A stretch of 64,000 nucleotides of DNA from an uncultured Bacteroidia bacterium (GTDB lineage: Bacteria; Bacteroidota; Bacteroidia; Bacteroidales; UBA932): contig CADBYT010000002.1 of the NCBI GenBank assembly GCA_902798975.1, forward strand, positions 49,890 through 113,889, read 5' to 3'. The position numbers were made by a program, and so were the translations under genes. The notes under the pieces are model-generated. The model did not search any database, was not told the origin of the DNA, and was given only the letters and a program-made list of their open reading frames with translations. Shown here piece after piece: positions 55,179 to 64,000 of this stretch (positions are counted from its first letter, which is position 1; the number at the start of each line of letters is the position of its first letter).

Positions 55179-55673
55179 ATGACCCCGGCATCTGTCATGC
55201 GATTCAAGCACACCCGTCGTCCGGGATTCCTGTTCGGGCTGATCGACTTCTGTACCGTCGGCCTGTTCTTCCTGTTCTATATGCCGCAGAGCGGTCTGCA
55301 GGAAGAGCTGGACTGTATCCTGGGGCGAAAGACAATGCCCTACTGGAAGGCCTATCTGCTGGGCATCCCGACCCTGTTCATCTACCCCCTGGTCTGGATG
55401 GCCCGGATCGCGGAGGAGCTGAAAGCGAAGGCCGTCGAGCTGGGAATCGAAGGCCCGTACACTTCGTGGTGGCACATGTTCGGCTGGAACACGTTCGGCG
55501 TGCTGCTGCTCGGTCCCGGCTTTGCAACGGGCCGTTTCTTCTCGACCCTGAACAGGATTGAGTCCAGATTGAACGGATCGGAATGTCCGGAATACTTCCT
55601 CCGGGCGACCATCCTGCGCCTGGCGTCCCCCAGGGGCAAAAACACCCCTTTCTGCCCCCGGCGCACGGAATAA
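55179..55673 (+). CDS. DUF4234-like membrane protein with a C-terminal tail made by a repeat
   Basis: A 164-residue protein. The core (residues 1-146) has helices at about 20-38, 58-77 and 100-118 and matches the broken copy at 42136-42403 in LGIPTLFIYPLVWMARIAEELK and GPYTSWWHMFGWN. The last 15 to 18 residues (LRLASPRGKNTPFCPRRTE) are encoded by the 32-nt palindrome at 55630. The older stop would be expected about where the broken copy ends (after NGS). The repeat may have been inserted into the gene end. Confidence 0.78.
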   Translation: MTPASVMRFKHTRRPGFLFGLIDFCTVGLFFLFYMPQSGLQEELDCILGRKTMPYWKAYLLGIPTLFIYPLVWMARIAEELKAKAVELGIEGPYTSWWHMFGWNTFGVLLLGPGFATGRFFSTLNRIESRLNGSECPEYFLRATILRLASPRGKNTPFCPRRTE

Positions 55674-55712
55674 TTCGTCTCCAGGGGCAAATCAGGGCCT
55701 CAGCGCCCCTGG
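55630..55712. repeat. Two-unit array of 32-nt palindromes
   Basis: Units at 55630-55661 and 55681-55712, separated by 19 nt. Both begin CCAGGGGCAAA. Stems pair CCAGGGGCA with TGCCCCCGG (one mismatch) and CCAGGGGC with GCCCCTGG. CAGAAGGAGAT follows the second unit, as it does after the last unit of the array at 61083-61207. Confidence 0.85.
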
Positions 55713-55809
55713 CAGAAGGAGATGATACAAAGAAGGCCAGCGTTGATCCGAGGGGGAAACATATCAGGTAAAAAAAGCTATATTAGCGCATAACAATCAA
55801 ATACTTTCA

Positions 55810-59557: not shown

Positions 59558-60121
59558 ATGAAGAATACGATCAACGAAGAGAAGAAGTGGAAGGTGCTCA
59601 AATCGGAGTATCTGTTCAAGCGGCCGTGGCTGACGGCGCGCAAGGATGAGGTGCAGCTGCCCGACGGGCGGATCAATCCGGAGTATTACATCCTGGAGTA
59701 TCCGGACTGGGTGAACGTCATCGCTTTCACGAAGGATGGGCAGATGGTCCTGGAGCGGCAGTACCGGCACGGGCTCGGGAAGACCTGCTATGAGCTGCCC
59801 TGCGGGGTGGTCGAGGCGGGCGAAGCCTCGTTGGAGGCCGCGAAGCGGGAACTCCTCGAAGAGACCGGCTACGCAGGAGGCGTGTGGCAGGAGTGGATGA
59901 CGCTCTCTCCCAACGCGAGCGCGAACAGCAACCTCGTGCATTGCTTCCTGGCCCGCGATGTCGAGAAGGTTGCGGAGCAGGATCTCGACCCGACGGAGGA
60001 TATCGCCGTGTCGCTGCACAGCGAGGCTTTCGTGCGGGACCTGCTGGTGGAGAATCAGCTCATGCAGGCGCAGATGGTTGCGCCGCTGTGGAAATATTTC
60101 TATCTGCTGGACAAGAAATAA
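59558..60121 (+). CDS. Nudix hydrolase (ADP-ribose pyrophosphatase-like)
   Basis: A 187-residue protein. The Nudix box is GVVEAGEASLEAAKRELLEETGY (about residues 82-104), with all metal-binding Glu residues. VIAFTKDGQMVLERQYRHGLGKTCYELP precedes it and resembles ADP-ribose hydrolases. It cleaves nucleoside diphosphates linked to another group. It sits 19 nt downstream of the thioesterase remnant. Confidence 0.93.
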   Translation: MKNTINEEKKWKVLKSEYLFKRPWLTARKDEVQLPDGRINPEYYILEYPDWVNVIAFTKDGQMVLERQYRHGLGKTCYELPCGVVEAGEASLEAAKRELLEETGYAGGVWQEWMTLSPNASANSNLVHCFLARDVEKVAEQDLDPTEDIAVSLHSEAFVRDLLVENQLMQAQMVAPLWKYFYLLDKK

Positions 60122-60125
60122 TTGG

Positions 60126-60212
60126 ATGAAGCGCGGGAAGAAACTGAATTCGCAGGCGAAGTCTATGCCGGCGCAGCGGGCAATGGGTAAAGACCACTCA
60201 ATCTATGGATGA
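60126..60212 (+). CDS. Possible 28-residue small protein
   Basis: ATG 60126 opens a basic 28-residue frame (KRGKKLNSQAKSMPAQRAMG, then KDHSIYG) between the Nudix and HD genes, overlapping the HD start by 8 nt. It has no recognisable family. It could be a real small gene, a remnant of a longer gene's end or chance. Confidence 0.3.
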   Translation: MKRGKKLNSQAKSMPAQRAMGKDHSIYG

Positions 60213-60795
60213 CCGACTGAAAAAGCAACTGGATTTTATCCTTGAAATCGACAAGGAGAAGAATATCTTCCGCCAGACGCATCTGTCCGGCGGCGGCCGG
60301 GCGGAGGACGACGCCGAGCACGCCTGGCACATGGCCATCATGGCCTGGCTGCTGAAGGACTATGCCAACGAGCCTGTCGACGTGGCCCGCGTGATGATGA
60401 TGTGCCTGATCCACGACATCGTGGAAATCGACGCCGGAGACACCTACGCCTATGATCCCGAGGCGCTCAAGACGCAGCAGGCGCGGGAGGACGCCGCCAA
60501 GGAGCGGATCTTTTCGCTGCTGCCGGAGGACCAGCGGGCGGAACTCATCGCCCTGTTCGACGAATTCGAGGCGGCGCAGACGCCGGAGGCGAAGTTCGCC
60601 CATTCACTTGACAACCTGCAACCGCTGCTGCTGAACAACAGCAACGACGGCGCCGACTGGAAGGCGCACGGGGTGACGGCGAAACAAGTCTGGGGCCGCC
60701 AGCGGAACACGCAGCTCGGTTCGGAAACCCTGTTCGAAGTCACGGAGGGCATCATCCGGGAGCAAATCCGCAAAGGCAATCTGCCGGAAGAGTAA
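60205..60795 (+). CDS. HD-domain hydrolase (YfbR-like)
   Basis: A 196-residue protein. DDAEHAWHMAIMAWLL provides the first His, VARVMMMCLIHDIVEIDAGDTYAYD the HD pair, and SLDNLQPLLLN the last Asp, the metal-binding set of HD hydrolases. It is close to the 5'-deoxynucleotidase YfbR group, which removes phosphate from deoxyribonucleoside 5'-monophosphates. The neighbouring Nudix gene also acts on nucleotides. Confidence 0.9.
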   Translation: MDDRLKKQLDFILEIDKEKNIFRQTHLSGGGRAEDDAEHAWHMAIMAWLLKDYANEPVDVARVMMMCLIHDIVEIDAGDTYAYDPEALKTQQAREDAAKERIFSLLPEDQRAELIALFDEFEAAQTPEAKFAHSLDNLQPLLLNNSNDGADWKAHGVTAKQVWGRQRNTQLGSETLFEVTEGIIREQIRKGNLPEE

Positions 60796-60829
60796 GAGAA
60801 GGTGCAGCTTGGAAGGCCGTTACGGCAGC

Positions 60830-61018
60830 TCAGTCGATGATGACGGAGCCGTCGGAATGAAGGGTGACGTAGTTGCCTTCGTGGATGGTGACGGGACCCT
60901 CGTCGGTCATCAGGGAGAGCATCGAGAAGCCCATGCAGTCGTACGGGGCGAGGAGGCGTTCGCCGAGAAGCTGCTTCAATTCGGCATAGTTGTTTCCGGT
61001 GTATTGGATCCGTGTCAT
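60830..61018 (-). CDS. Small conserved-looking protein, function unknown
   Basis: A 62-residue soluble protein starting TRIQYTGNNYAELKQLLGER and ending VTIHEGNYVTLHSDGSVIID, with a helix then three strands. Proteins of this shape occur in phage and chromosomal settings. No role is claimed. ATG 61018 is chosen since upstream codons run into the repeat array. The array at 61083-61207 lies 65 nt upstream, in its likely promoter region. Confidence 0.6.
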   Translation of the reverse strand: MTRIQYTGNNYAELKQLLGERLLAPYDCMGFSMLSLMTDEGPVTIHEGNYVTLHSDGSVIID

Positions 61019-61082
61019 CGCAGGTCGAGTTGGGTGAGGATAAAACAGGTCAGGGCAATTTGCGCCCGGCATTTTTCGCTTC

Positions 61083-61207
61083 CCGGGCACACCAGCACCC
61101 CATTTTGTGCCCGGCAACCGTTTCCCAGGGGCAAAAGCACCCCATTCTGCCCCTGGAAACCCTATTTTCTTGCCGCCAGGGGCAAAACTGCCCCTTTTCG
61201 CCCCTGG
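61083..61207. repeat. Three-unit array of 32-nt palindromes
   Basis: Units at 61083-61114, 61125-61156 and 61176-61207, each exactly 32 nt, with gaps of 10 and 19 nt. Stems: CCGGGCACA with TGTGCCCGG (9 bp), CCAGGGGCA with TGCCCCTGG (9 bp), CCAGGGGC with GCCCCTGG (8 bp). Units 1 and 2 have the same centre, AGCACCCCATT, although the stem sequence differs on both arms. A half-unit may precede (TGCGCCCGG at 61061-61069). Confidence 0.88.
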
Positions 61208-61213
61208 CAGAAG

Positions 61214-61244
61214 GAGATTCGCCGGTCGAAGCCGGCGAATGACG
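61214..61244. repeat. REP-like palindrome ATTC-stem-GAATGACG
   Basis: ATTCGCCGG (61217-61225) pairs with CCGGCGAAT (61232-61240) around TCGAAG, followed by GACG. It follows the last 32-nt unit directly. It belongs to the group at 9905, 61586 and 63844. Confidence 0.82.
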
Positions 61245-61505
61245 GATAGAGGATGGCAGAGCGTTTTGCGGCAGCCGGTGGGGAGGATGTGCGGGAGCCC
61301 GCGCCCGTTTGCCCGTGCTGTCGGGGGATGTGCGGGGGCCGTGCGTTGGGAGCGGCTGCCGCGGGTGCTGGAGGCAGAAAAGACTGTGGGATGCAGGCAG
61401 ACAAGCATTTTTTTGCTTGGATGGCTGCAGCCCCACAGGCTCTGCCGGAAGCACATTGCGGCTGTGAGCTGGAAGTAGATATGTATCAGAATCAGAGAAT
61501 TGCGG

Positions 61506-61540
61506 TTTTGTACTCCCCCGAAAAAAGGGATAGTACAAAA
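61506..61540. other. Hairpin of unknown role
   Basis: TTTTGTACTCCC (61506-61517) pairs with GGG (61527-61529) and, after a two-base bulge, AGTACAAAA (61532-61540). The loop is A-rich. It has no T-tract on either strand. No gene is adjacent. Confidence 0.6.
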
Positions 61541-61585
61541 ACATATCTATCATTCAATCAGTAATTTACATCTCACAGCGAAAAC

Positions 61586-61613
61586 GAGATTCCGGGTCAA
61601 GCCCGGAATGACG
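61586..61613. repeat. REP-like palindrome ATTC-stem-GAATGACG
   Basis: ATTCCGGG (61589-61596) pairs with CCCGGAAT (61602-61609) around TCAAG, with GAG before and GACG after. Confidence 0.82.
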
Positions 61614-61690
61614 CAAGAAAGCCAGCGCTGGCGGAGAAGGAAACGAAAAAGACAGCGAAACCGCTATCAGGCTCGGAGCGAAGCGACTAG

Positions 61691-61789
61691 GGGGTGCTCG
61701 AGGGGGTACGCCCCCCTCGTTCTTCAAAGGATGAGGGTTCCACGCGGCAGTTAGAGCGAAGCGAAGTCGGCACCAGCCGACCGGCGCGG
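61691..61789. repeat. Long direct repeat, copy 1 (99 bp shared with 63902-64000)
   Basis: From GGGGTGCTCG to CCGGCGCGG the 99 bases are the same as 63902-64000, where the window ends, so the true repeat may be longer. It contains the hairpin CGAGGGGG/CCCCCTCG and the hairpin GTCGGC-ACCA-GCCGAC. No protein is evident. Confidence 0.9.
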
Positions 61790-61823
61790 GCGAAGCGAAG
61801 TCGGCACCAGCCGACCGGCGCGG
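61756..61823. repeat. 34-bp perfect tandem duplication
   Basis: A 34-nt unit beginning GCGAAGCGAAGTCGG occurs at 61756-61789 and again, without a gap, at 61790-61823. Each unit holds the hairpin GTCGGC-ACCA-GCCGAC. The first unit is also the end of the long repeat. Confidence 0.9.
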
Positions 61824-61903
61824 TCCCGGGACTTTGCGCCAGCAAAGTCGGAAAGGGACTTGAGCGACGCAGGGGGTCGCAGGGGGCGGAGCCCCCTTTA
61901 AAG

Positions 61904-61938
61904 CAAGAAAAGCCTGCCAGGCTGGCAGGCTTTTCTTG
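61904..61938. terminator. Strong bidirectional-type hairpin
   Basis: AAGAAAAGCCTGCCA (61905-61919) pairs perfectly with TGGCAGGCTTTTCTT (61923-61937) around a 3-nt loop. With A-rich and T-rich arms it could stop transcription from either side; on the minus strand it is about 90 nt after the toxin gene stop. Confidence 0.75.
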
Positions 61939-62029
61939 TACCCCCAACCGGAGTAATATCGAACTCTTTCCTGGAAGATCTGGAGCGGATCTGGTCCCTG
62001 CGGGATGTCATTCCGGATCCTAATAAGAT

Positions 62030-62371
62030 TTAGCTATCTAATTCCAAGTGTTGTGCAACCACATGGTTATTGCTCATGTAACGGACTAGAAAGACAGTCT
62101 CCCCTCCTACCTCGTAAACGTTAAAGAAAACATACCAAGTTGTATGCTTATTCTTATGAAAAGAGGCATAGAACATCTCTTTACCAAATCGATCAAACCA
62201 AGCCGGTGCTTTCCGGTGTACTTTCTGCGGAAGAGATGTCTTGATGTCACGGAAAAGACTCTCTGAATACTCCAGTGCAGTATCCAGAAAGCTCAGATAG
62301 CCCTTTTCATAGAGGATCTCAGCCAGCTCCACGAATTGCTGGCTGACCTCAGGAAGAAACAGCACCCTCAT
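62030..62371 (-). CDS. RelE/ParE-like toxin
   Basis: A 113-residue basic protein. RVLFLPEVSQQFVELAEILYEKGYLSFLDTALEYSESLFRDIK is the N-terminal helical hairpin, and WYVFFNVYEVGGETVFLVRYMSNNHVVAQHL the C-terminal strands of the RelE/ParE fold. The order antitoxin then toxin and 4-nt overlap support the call. It would cleave mRNA or poison gyrase; which is unclear. Base composition is more AT-rich than most of the window. Confidence 0.82.
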   Translation of the reverse strand: MRVLFLPEVSQQFVELAEILYEKGYLSFLDTALEYSESLFRDIKTSLPQKVHRKAPAWFDRFGKEMFYASFHKNKHTTWYVFFNVYEVGGETVFLVRYMSNNHVVAQHLELDS

Positions 62372-62610
62372 TCCGCCGACACCTTCTCCGCTTCCTTCCT
62401 TTCAAACATTTCGGTGAGCCCCTCGCGAACCTTGGCGATGACTTCGTCCACGGTGATTGCCCGGGCAAGGTCAAATTCCACGGGATTCTGTTGCATGGAA
62501 AGCACGAAAGTCTCGTTCTTCCCACGCTGAATCAGCACCTGCTCCCGCTTGGCGATATCCAGGTACTTCTTCATATTGCTCCGTAACTCAGCAGAACTAA
62601 TTACAACCAT
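62368..62610 (-). CDS. Phd/YefM-like antitoxin
   Basis: An 80-residue protein. VVISSAELRSNMKKYLDIAKREQVLIQRGKNETFVL is the Phd/YefM DNA-binding fold; residues 50-80 form an acidic helix to bind the toxin. It is first in the operon and overlaps the toxin gene by 4 nt. A perfect 16-bp palindrome 8 nt upstream is the likely operator for self-repression. Confidence 0.85.
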   Translation of the reverse strand: MVVISSAELRSNMKKYLDIAKREQVLIQRGKNETFVLSMQQNPVEFDLARAITVDEVIAKVREGLTEMFERKEAEKVSAE

Positions 62611-62617
62611 AATACAA

Positions 62618-62633
62618 GTACATTATAATGTAC
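62618..62633. promoter_or_regulatory. Palindromic operator of the toxin-antitoxin operon
   Basis: GTACATTATAATGTAC is a perfect 16-bp palindrome, 8 nt before the antitoxin ATG on the minus strand. Its place fits Phd/YefM autoregulation. Confidence 0.72.
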
Positions 62634-62659
62634 AAAAATAGAAATAGTTTTCGAAAAAC

Positions 62660-62676
62660 ACAATATGTCATATTGT
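62660..62676. promoter_or_regulatory. Palindrome upstream of the HELVHG lipoprotein gene
   Basis: ACAATATG-T-CATATTGT (62660-62676), 10 nt before a TATATTTG -7 box (62686-62693) of the plus-strand gene at 62725. It lies where a regulator could block that promoter. It differs from the toxin-antitoxin palindrome. Confidence 0.6.
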
Positions 62677-62724
62677 TAAAATGCTTATATTTGATTCGAC
62701 AAATAGGTCTTAAGCGATTCTTGT

Positions 62725-63714
62725 ATGCGCATTGCTAGATTATTGTTGTGCTTGCTGACATTAGCCGTTTTTTCCTGCAACGGCAAACAAATACCGACGA
62801 AACAAGAGAAAGAGCTGATTGCTCAAATTGAACAGATTTTCTGTGTCAAACAACAGTTGGCCGACAAATATTGGCCTGAGTTTAATGACGAAAAGTATTC
62901 CGTTCCTATCATTTTTTTTGCAGGTTCAACTTGTTATGTCGTGAATCCAGAGGCTGACTTTTTGAGAGCATTCCGTTGTAAACAGATTAAAACGGACAAG
63001 TTTCAACTGTATAAGACCAGGAGACTTGATTCCAGACCCTACATTATGGAGACGCAGGTCAATTTATCCTCCTATACTTCGACATACGCGGGGAAAACAC
63101 CCTATGCCATGTGCAGTGTTTGGAGTGAGACGCAGAAGACGTATTCAGTAGAAATAATGGATGAAGCAGTGTGGATGGCGAGTGTGATTCATGAGCTGGT
63201 ACATGGTTGCCAGGTATCTCATCCATGGTTTAATTTGGCGCAGCACAAGACGGATTATTCGGTTTCTGATATGGAATTAACCTCATACCCTTCCCGATAT
63301 CCTTGGCTTTGTGATGCTCTGATTGAGGAAAATGATTACTTGTTGTCCGCAATCTCTGCCGATGATGAATCTGAGATGAAGGTTTTTCTCAGAAAATTCC
63401 TTTCGTGCCGGAAAGAACGCAAAAATAGGATGAAGGCAGAGTTTGGAGAGGCTCTTGTCCGGAATGAGGAACAATACGAAACCGACGAATCTCTTGCCCG
63501 GTTTATGGAACTCCAAACTGCCATAATGCTCAACACGGAGAATCCAGTATATGCAGAAGGCTCTTTCTATTTCTGCAATAATGTTCAAGAAGACTATCAA
63601 TTCATTACAGGATACAATCTTGTCAGACTGTTCTTGAAGATGGGCATTGATCTGGATTTGCCTTACAATTCAGTCTTGCTTAGGTCACTTGACTCATATA
63701 TCAATATAGATTGA
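62725..63714 (+). CDS. Lipoprotein with HELVHG zinc-binding-type motif
   Basis: A 329-residue exported protein with a lipobox (LLLCLLTLAVFSCNG, Cys 18). MASVIHELVHGCQVS (about residues 151-166) has the HExxH of zinc metallopeptidases. A third ligand could be one of the Glu residues in DALIEENDYLL or RFMELQTAIM; I cannot choose. No family name is recognised. By eye it is AT-rich (about 42% GC) against about 60% for most neighbours, which suggests transfer with the toxin-antitoxin pair. Confidence 0.65.
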   Translation: MRIARLLLCLLTLAVFSCNGKQIPTKQEKELIAQIEQIFCVKQQLADKYWPEFNDEKYSVPIIFFAGSTCYVVNPEADFLRAFRCKQIKTDKFQLYKTRRLDSRPYIMETQVNLSSYTSTYAGKTPYAMCSVWSETQKTYSVEIMDEAVWMASVIHELVHGCQVSHPWFNLAQHKTDYSVSDMELTSYPSRYPWLCDALIEENDYLLSAISADDESEMKVFLRKFLSCRKERKNRMKAEFGEALVRNEEQYETDESLARFMELQTAIMLNTENPVYAEGSFYFCNNVQEDYQFITGYNLVRLFLKMGIDLDLPYNSVLLRSLDSYINID

Positions 63715-63740
63715 TTTTTATTCCAAGAATAGAGTCCTGA

Positions 63741-63786
63741 CAGTCACTCAAATCTCGGCGCCGGAAAAGCACTAAACCGGCGCCGA
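63741..63786. repeat. Dispersed 46-nt element, copy B (32-nt palindrome)
   Basis: CAGTCACTCAAATC (63741-63754) precedes a 32-nt palindrome (63755-63786): TCGGCGCCGG and CCGGCGCCGA pair over 10 bp around AAAAGCACTAAA. Copy A is at 50627-50672. The AAAAGCAC centre is also in array unit 61125-61156. Confidence 0.78.
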
Positions 63787-63843
63787 CCCCACTTCAAAAA
63801 CCTATGTGGGCGCCACTAACCGCCATTTTCGCCGCCGACATTC

Positions 63844-63874
63844 TGAGATTCGCCGATCAAGTCGGCGAATGACG
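63844..63874. repeat. REP-like palindrome ATTC-stem-GAATGACG
   Basis: ATTCGCCGA (63848-63856) pairs with TCGGCGAAT (63862-63870) around TCAAG, followed by GACG. It lies between the 46-nt element and the long repeat. Confidence 0.82.
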
Positions 63875-63901
63875 GGAGTTCGGAGGCCGAAGGCCGACGC
63901 A

Positions 63902-64000
63902 GGGGTGCTCGAGGGGGTACGCCCCCCTCGTTCTTCAAAGGATGAGGGTTCCACGCGGCAGTTAGAGCGAAGCGAAGTCGGCACCAGCCGACCGGCGCGG
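63902..64000. repeat. Long direct repeat, copy 2 (cut by window end)
   Basis: The 99 bases to the window end are the same as 61691-61789. The region from 63715 on holds only repeats. Together the two copies flank the toxin-antitoxin pair and the HELVHG lipoprotein gene. Confidence 0.9.

Follow-up and report, generated by a model that had tools for sequence, protein, structure and literature searches.

Hairpin pairs set 51 bases apart form a probable mobile repeat of gut Bacteroidales, with a stem sequence that seems to track a matching transposase

The window, by which we mean the whole 64,000-nt stretch of DNA that was analysed, comes from a genome whose genus is probably Cryptobacteroides, and at 61083-61207 it contains 125 nt holding three 32-nt hairpins separated by linkers of 10 and 19 nt. 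A sequence-only reading had described three such hairpins, and we recovered them at 61083-61114, 61125-61156 and 61176-61207, each folding better than its dinucleotide shuffles (z of -4.0, -3.7 and -3.1 for units 1, 2 and 3). The stems of units 1 and 2 are 9 bp each, and that of unit 3 is 8 bp followed by a mismatch and then 3 further pairs. The parts of this locus, and of a second copy found in the window, are as follows.

55179-55673, plus strand: 164-aa ORF for which the second copy encodes the C-terminal end, RGKNTPFCPRRTE
55630-55661, plus strand: second copy, a-type hairpin 1
55662-55680, plus strand: second copy, 19-nt linker, which gives the upstream ORF its stop codon
55681-55712, plus strand: second copy, a-type hairpin 2
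61051-61069, plus strand: probable remnant of the b-type hairpin with which the composite would begin, recognized by eye from its right half, ending GCGCCCGG
61070-61082, plus strand: b-b linker, shortened to 13 nt versus 19 nt in full copies
61083-61114, plus strand: unit 1, b-type hairpin with stem CCGGGCACA/TGTGCCCGG
61115-61124, plus strand: 10-nt linker between the b and a modules, CAACCGTTTC
61125-61156, plus strand: unit 2, a-type hairpin 1 with stem CCAGGGGCA/TGCCCCTGG
61157-61175, plus strand: inner linker of the a module, 19 nt
61176-61207, plus strand: unit 3, a-type hairpin 2 with stem CCAGGGGC/GCCCCTGG
61208-61216, plus strand: CAGAAGGAG junction, with a second occurrence at 55713-55721
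61217-61244, minus strand: CGTC-type REP palindrome abutting the module, with a CGTC tag and the 9-bp stem ATTCGCCGG (class as given in PMC3733652)

At the window locus, a b module and an a module are joined into a composite that is now damaged and that adjoins a CGTC-type REP. The probable remnant at 61051-61069 was recognized by comparison with four-hairpin copies in two other loci (L184, at 7705, and L140), and 10-nt linkers resembling CAACCGTTTC occur in composites elsewhere; the sequence-only reading had missed both this likeness to a fourth hairpin and the recurrence of the 10- and 19-nt linkers. It had correctly judged the gaps too short for CRISPR. A CRISPR array consists of identical repeats split by unique spacers of about 30 nt; as the linkers here are 10 and 19 nt, with a shared consensus among the 19-nt ones, they are too short and too alike, and we set CRISPR aside. 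Elsewhere in the window we noted a dispersed repeat (GGGTGCTCGAGGGGGTACGCCCCCCTCGTTCTTC...) with copies at 61689-61823 and 63902-64000, the first carrying a 34-nt tandem duplication at 61756-61823; a further 32-nt palindrome at 63755-63786 (TCGGCGCCGGAAAAGCACTAAACCGGCGCCGA), its stem different from the array's, with a CGTC-type REP some 65 nt beyond it at about 63852-63877; and, on the minus strand at 62030-62610, adjacent small ORFs of 113 and 80 aa that resemble a toxin-antitoxin pair.

A search of the window for CCAGGGGCA-N14-YGCCCCTGG with up to 3 mismatches gave 8 matches (4 places, both strands) versus 0.29 expected, and 0 of 100 shuffles reached 8; the four places do not include unit 1. 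The second hairpin pair (55630-55661 and 55681-55712) accounts for two of the four and has the same 51-nt start spacing. The basic module is a double hairpin of 32-19-32 = 83 nt, and the hairpin pairs of the window's own genome align gap-free over all 83 columns. Searching that genome with a single-unit pattern (up to 2 mismatches), we found that 14 of 14 units had a partner exactly 51 nt away, and a covariance model of the double hairpin matched 16 distinct places at E-values of 1.5e-6 or better, 10 of which had served to build the model.

The sequence-only reading had proposed a covariance-model search of related genomes, where finding no further units would count against it. In a survey of 200 genomes sampled from the window's genus, its own included and with 22 candidates scored per genome, the model matched at E ≤ 0.01 in 81, so the units do recur. 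A search of relatives with the a-type pattern, allowing 3 mismatches, gave matches in 44 of 61 genomes; in many of these a reversed-pattern control gave results of similar size, and for this reason we used pattern results from the own genome only. A search of GTDB species with a pattern that fixes most stem letters returned at least 80 stretches. Among the matches listed, 79 of 80 named Bacteroidales, Bacteroidia or, in one case, Candidatus Cryptobacteroides equifaecalis in their titles, on which our guess at the genus rests, and many came from ruminants; a Herminiimonas match (L192) looked like a chance coding repeat and was excluded from the covariation and unit-end counts. There were no exact matches to the pattern in viral_contigs, and we set a phage origin aside on that result. 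We take the element to be a mobile repeat of gut Bacteroidales made of hairpin pairs 51 bases apart.

The stem comes in different versions, e.g., CCAGGGGC (a), CCGGGCAC (b) and CCGGGAGC (c), in which the four arms of a module change together. To the 93 double hairpins that remained among the GTDB matches listed after removal of L192 and overlapping matches, the search pattern had made no pairing demand at positions 3, 6 and 7; because the other stem letters were largely fixed, the covariation test bears on pairs 3-30, 6-27 and 7-26. Pair 6-27, at which G-C, C-G and A-T are each common, was Watson-Crick in 90 and 86 of 93 (first and second hairpin), pair 7-26 in 92 and 90, and pair 3-30 in 68 and 73 with G-T in a further 11 and 10. 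Perfect hairpins numbered 129 of 186 (shuffled mean 45, maximum 69), and both hairpins shared the same left arm in 76 of 93 modules (shuffled mean 24, maximum 43); these figures count copies, not events. The earlier claim that structure is kept while sequence changes is upheld by these counts. A neutral process might produce something similar. Template switching within a palindrome transfers a change in one arm to the other, and repeats can grow by slippage; chimaeric arms are indeed present in one locus (L120), and arrays grow by 51-nt steps to about 14 copies. However, such a process leaves unexplained both the sharing of a stem by the two hairpins of a module and the match between stems and transposase clades described below, and it would need a mover for dispersal to unrelated loci and for the empty orthologous sites, so we regard it as a very unlikely account of the covariation.

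Among 133 distinct arrays, neighbouring units were 51 nt apart in 116 of 125 cases and 42 nt apart in 8, the units having been pre-filtered for 7 of 8 pairs; since the GTDB pattern that supplied most loci required the 19-nt linker, this count is not independent proof of the spacing, and the unbiased evidence is the 14 of 14 units in the own genome together with 40 transposase loci, discussed below, that were fetched without the hairpin pattern. Tandem arrays reach about 14 units in steps of 51 nt. At seven distinct loci, the window's included, a 10-nt linker connects a b-type hairpin (CCGGGCAC) with an a-type pair (CCAGGGGC); five of the seven composites show all four hairpins (b-19-b-10-a-19-a), the window having three and the remnant. 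By eye, a GATTC(G)CCGG-like REP terminates five of the seven, and a REP core lies within 120 nt of 10 of 91 arrays versus about 1.4 expected. The window stretch from ~61072 to 61244 was matched at five places in genome G104 (one ending earlier, and the stretch through the REP to ~61244 being found as a single block) and at two in G087, and from this recurrence the composite seems to spread whole. In 80 unit pairs among 263 units, at least 14 of the 16 loop letters agreed although the stems differed, a count taken with no control. On either strand, 22 of 116 linkers begin CAANNNNTT versus 0.2 when shuffled, a start that we take to resemble the IHF consensus; an IHF-like core in the linkers is a lead only. 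Beside the hairpin arrays of one locus (L145:4786-4943) we also observed a 13-nt tandem repeat of about 12 copies.

Arrays lie both within and between genes. An open frame of at least 60 aa on each side spanned 39 of 84 testable arrays, a count inflated by high GC, and known Pfam families were found in nine of ten array-spanning proteins: THUMP-like methyltransferase (two), HrpB (two), MutY, GH106, MatE, P-type ATPase and phosphofructokinase. The insert falls within the Pfam domain in MutY and the P-type ATPase and between domains in the THUMP-like methyltransferase and HrpB; in the phosphofructokinase it precedes the domain and may be outside the real gene. The THUMP-like methyltransferase gene had a match in 136 of 151 genomes. 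We looked at the best 30 loci plus 5 others, of which 17 without the motif used were left unread, and a 17-row tree contained 11 rows with the loop filled, 3 with it empty and 3 outgroups. The close orthologs L203, L200 and L205 have no insert, the filled L204 and the empty L203 are sisters (100/99), and the stems within this single loop vary between species. For MutY, the hairpins were present in 2 of 28 rows read, namely L135 and the own genome; other in-frame insert types (e.g., IPRNPLGRFAPTAS and KWFFAKPCEKYF) occupy the MutY loop by species in L226-L255. The in-frame copies raise the idea of a protein-coding repeat whose 17-residue periods (PGAxxGxxAPG and the like) are selected as peptide. 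Seventeen codons do equal 51 nt, and the repeat is in a single frame in 11 of the 14 non-outgroup methyltransferase rows, but the frame of the insert differs among host genes, 37 of 82 copies are intergenic (heuristic gene calls), and the insert is missing from the three close orthologs just named. We find this idea hardly credible.

Intergenic arrays lie a median of 31 nt from gene 3' ends (n=41) and 108 nt from 5' ends (n=33), and divergent gaps hold few of them (5 of 37, versus 45 of 150 control gaps; heuristic gene calls). This position, together with strong folding on both strands, would suit hairpins that act as RNA, i.e., as transcript-end stabilizers, terminators or a structured small RNA under selection, with spread being incidental. 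REPs in general also favour 3' ends (PMC3733652), so array position does not discriminate. Moreover, 60700-61600 had no terminator-like site under scan rules requiring loops of 3-8 nt, all seven Rfam matches in 60000-64000 were below gathering scores, many copies sit within coding genes, and the best evidence ties the stems to a transposase. We consider an RNA function of this kind unlikely. The sequence-only reading had left RNA and protein binding side by side; protein binding is the better reading, because these hairpins are also found on either side of a Y1 HUH transposase gene, and the transposase clades largely agree with the stems.

That gene was found in a relative, G121 (locus L103), where it lies in a block of 1.34 kb that carries one hairpin pair close to either end. 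The flanks of the block, apparently lon on one side and a uracil-DNA glycosylase gene on the other, are contiguous by DNA search in three of nine other genomes (G174, G089 and G015), so the block is extra in G121; whether this represents gain there or loss elsewhere was judged on parsimony alone. In the other six genomes 2.2-4.3 kb separate the flanks, and in L307, L308 and L309 (G000, G104 and G132), where they are 2.5-4.3 kb apart, their relative orientation is different. We saw no target-site duplication, and the exact inserted length could not be fixed. The gene encodes 319 aa and is related to the genus's Y1 transposases (E-values of about 1e-6 to 1e-24), and close homologs adjoin hairpin units elsewhere. 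No Pfam family reached two reference transposase proteins, the 319-aa one included; Y1_Tnp was reached by one of ten family members (E-value 8.7e-5), and the family profile touched ISDra2-type TnpA around the HUH region (E-value 0.06). Residues M76, H79, H81 and Y137 are invariant in all ten rows, Y137 being presumably the catalytic residue, and the motifs NH[LV]H and YVNRNG occur in five and eight rows, respectively. Foldseek searches with a predicted structure (pLDDT 80.5) gave no match at E ≤ 0.001; the best was 4er8, a RAYT bound to a REP hairpin (probability 1.00, E-value 2.1e-3), followed by IS608/ISDra2-type TnpA. From its predicted fold, the flanked gene in relatives is a divergent Y1 (HUH) transposase, the nearest solved fold being that of a REP-associated transposase.

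At one stage we read the system as having no RAYT, as none of the 16 PF01797 loci read held a 32-nt unit. At E ≤ 0.001, PF01797 was detected in 16 of 17 genomes rich in the element, and also in 12 of 20 that had no R1 match. The G121 gene overturned that reading, since it is a relative mostly invisible to PF01797 (one of ten members). Some PF01797-type transposases in 3-kb genus loci (L266, L273, L274, L275 and L280) are flanked by palindromes of their own, some 37 nt long, 51-52 nt apart and with unrelated stems. In the own assembly, which is 71% complete, we found no cognate transposase: the best of its five transposase homologs (1.4e-47) is not in the close group, and none of the five loci had a hairpin unit. 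The best homologs in the element-rich G104, G143 and G174 (8.0e-91, 1.1e-50 and 2.4e-98) are likewise outside the close group, and G064 has a close-group gene yet only one model match.

We read 37 distinct transposase loci and labelled by hand the 26 with clear flanking palindromes, keeping off the tree the 11 that showed no clear repeated pair. On the tree of 26 genes, the 11 stem labels could be explained with 10 changes, which is the fewest possible; shuffled labels needed 18 on average, and none of 200 shuffles got down to 10. Six of the labels are single rows. Stems a (100/99) and b (99/96) are each one clade, as are stems GGAACAAAC and CGAACAAA; stem c, which includes the distant L165, is not (3 changes, 19 of 500 shuffles as low). 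A rule-based check of all 14 genes chosen for CCxGG-like stems agreed with the hand labels, every gene having one or more same-stem pairs at a distance of exactly 51 nt. Among 52 transposase loci, some of them near-copies, a same-stem palindrome pair was present in the flanks of 34 and absent at 18, and the distance between centres was 51 nt at 27, across unrelated stems; such pairs occurred at 10 of 12 loci fetched for hairpins and at 17 of the 40 others, and 200 control windows of 425 nt had no 51-nt pair and two pairs at 93. The stem sequence of the hairpins appears to follow that of the matching transposase, which gives the co-varying stems a plausible and testable explanation. Residue 78 adjoins the HUH motif and differs with the stem (a, S; b, T; c, N; 11 rows), but as clade and stem are confounded it is a candidate only.

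From these results we conclude, with a probability of roughly 0.85, that the array is composite, non-autonomous mobile DNA of a REP-like kind, moved by a stem-specific Y1 (HUH) REP-associated tyrosine transposase. The module would be two same-stem 32-nt hairpins with centres 51 nt apart, which the transposase would recognize, most likely as single-stranded DNA, and copy or move as a pair to new sites. Each transposase clade would read its own stem, and as the preference of the enzyme shifts the four arms would shift together, leaving co-varying stems; copies within genes would be retained only when in frame and stop-free. The comparisons show how the module is built and dispersed, orthologous sites with and without a copy, the covariation of the stems, hairpin pairs beside transposase genes in relatives and, for most labels, agreement of clade with stem; we infer binding, cleavage, single-strandedness, action as a dimer over 51 nt and present mobility in the own genome, as we do the mobilization of modules as such. 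A more specific reading, to which we give somewhat less than even odds, is that this is a distinct branch of single-strand transposition whose substrate is an obligatory same-stem hairpin pair of fixed 51-nt pitch. The stems of the clades have no common sequence (CCGGGNRC, GGAACAAAC, CGAACAAA, TTGCAGCA and GGTGTGCA), and as the pitch holds across them the enzyme might recognize the spacing and the structure, leaving its preference for a stem free to drift. Modules with different stems might then be joined into composites that spread as blocks.

Within one uncultured gut lineage, the system provides a natural series, running from stem c to b and a, along which a transposase that reads hairpins seems to have changed in step with its target. 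The series allows one to test how a Y1 enzyme chooses its stem and whether it needs two hairpins at a set distance. As the repeat decorates conserved enzymes in frame (MutY, HrpB and the THUMP-like methyltransferase), it also affects gene annotation in the genus. Our searches of open-licence literature brought up no description of the 51-nt hairpin pair or of this family in Cryptobacteroides.

The sequence-only reading knew of no described element of this design, which is partly right: the kind, REP/RAYT, is known, and the form found here is a variant of it. We read the system as REP/RAYT (REPIN-like) without a GTAG or CGTC tag. Palindromic copies are many and dispersed in a genome (the 16 places, 10 of which built the model), in relatives the Y1 gene is flanked by the same palindromes (14 of 14 genes), the protein combines the HUH motif and tyrosine with a Y1 fold (fold E-value 2.1e-3), and transposase types have stems of their own (26 of 37 loci labelled, stem c not forming one clade). 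In the REPINs of Pseudomonas what replicates is apparently a REP doublet, groups of REPs are found close to particular RAYT transposases, and tandem clusters form (PMC3116915), features that are shared here. Most doublets there are two inverted REPs, and the commonest inter-REP spacings are 71 and 110 bp, whereas every unit here is a palindrome of 32 nt in its own right and the spacing is 51 nt. Compared by description, TnpA_Y1 subclass 2.6 shares a mostly Bacteroidetes host range, the lack of a GT[AG]G tag and atypical secondary structures that flank the genes and also occur at other places in the genome (Quentin et al. 2018, PMC6006769). Its structures are weaker, it has a YIH[QN]NP motif and its median length is 179 aa, in contrast to the strong hairpins, YVNRNG (8 of 10 rows) and proteins of about 315 aa found here; of its other motif, NH[LIV]H, the form NH[LV]H occurs here in 5 of 10 rows. 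The GTAG and CGTC REP superfamilies, which include Rickettsia RPE-4 and RPE-6, likewise consist of short dispersed palindromes that form dimers and clusters, with intergenic and intragenic copies, several of them in DNA repair genes (PMC3733652); the DNA repair gene in our case is MutY. At the foot of 440 unit ends, GTAG was found 0 times and CGTC 10 times, which places the units outside the canonical superfamilies, and unlike those REPs the units have no unpaired tag at their ends, have loops of about 14-16 nt and come as a fixed 51-nt pair. Lastly, the Rickettsia palindromic elements share the habit of in-frame insertion into conserved protein genes, a likeness of descriptions and not of sequence; they are described as 105-146 bp long (PMC2229807).
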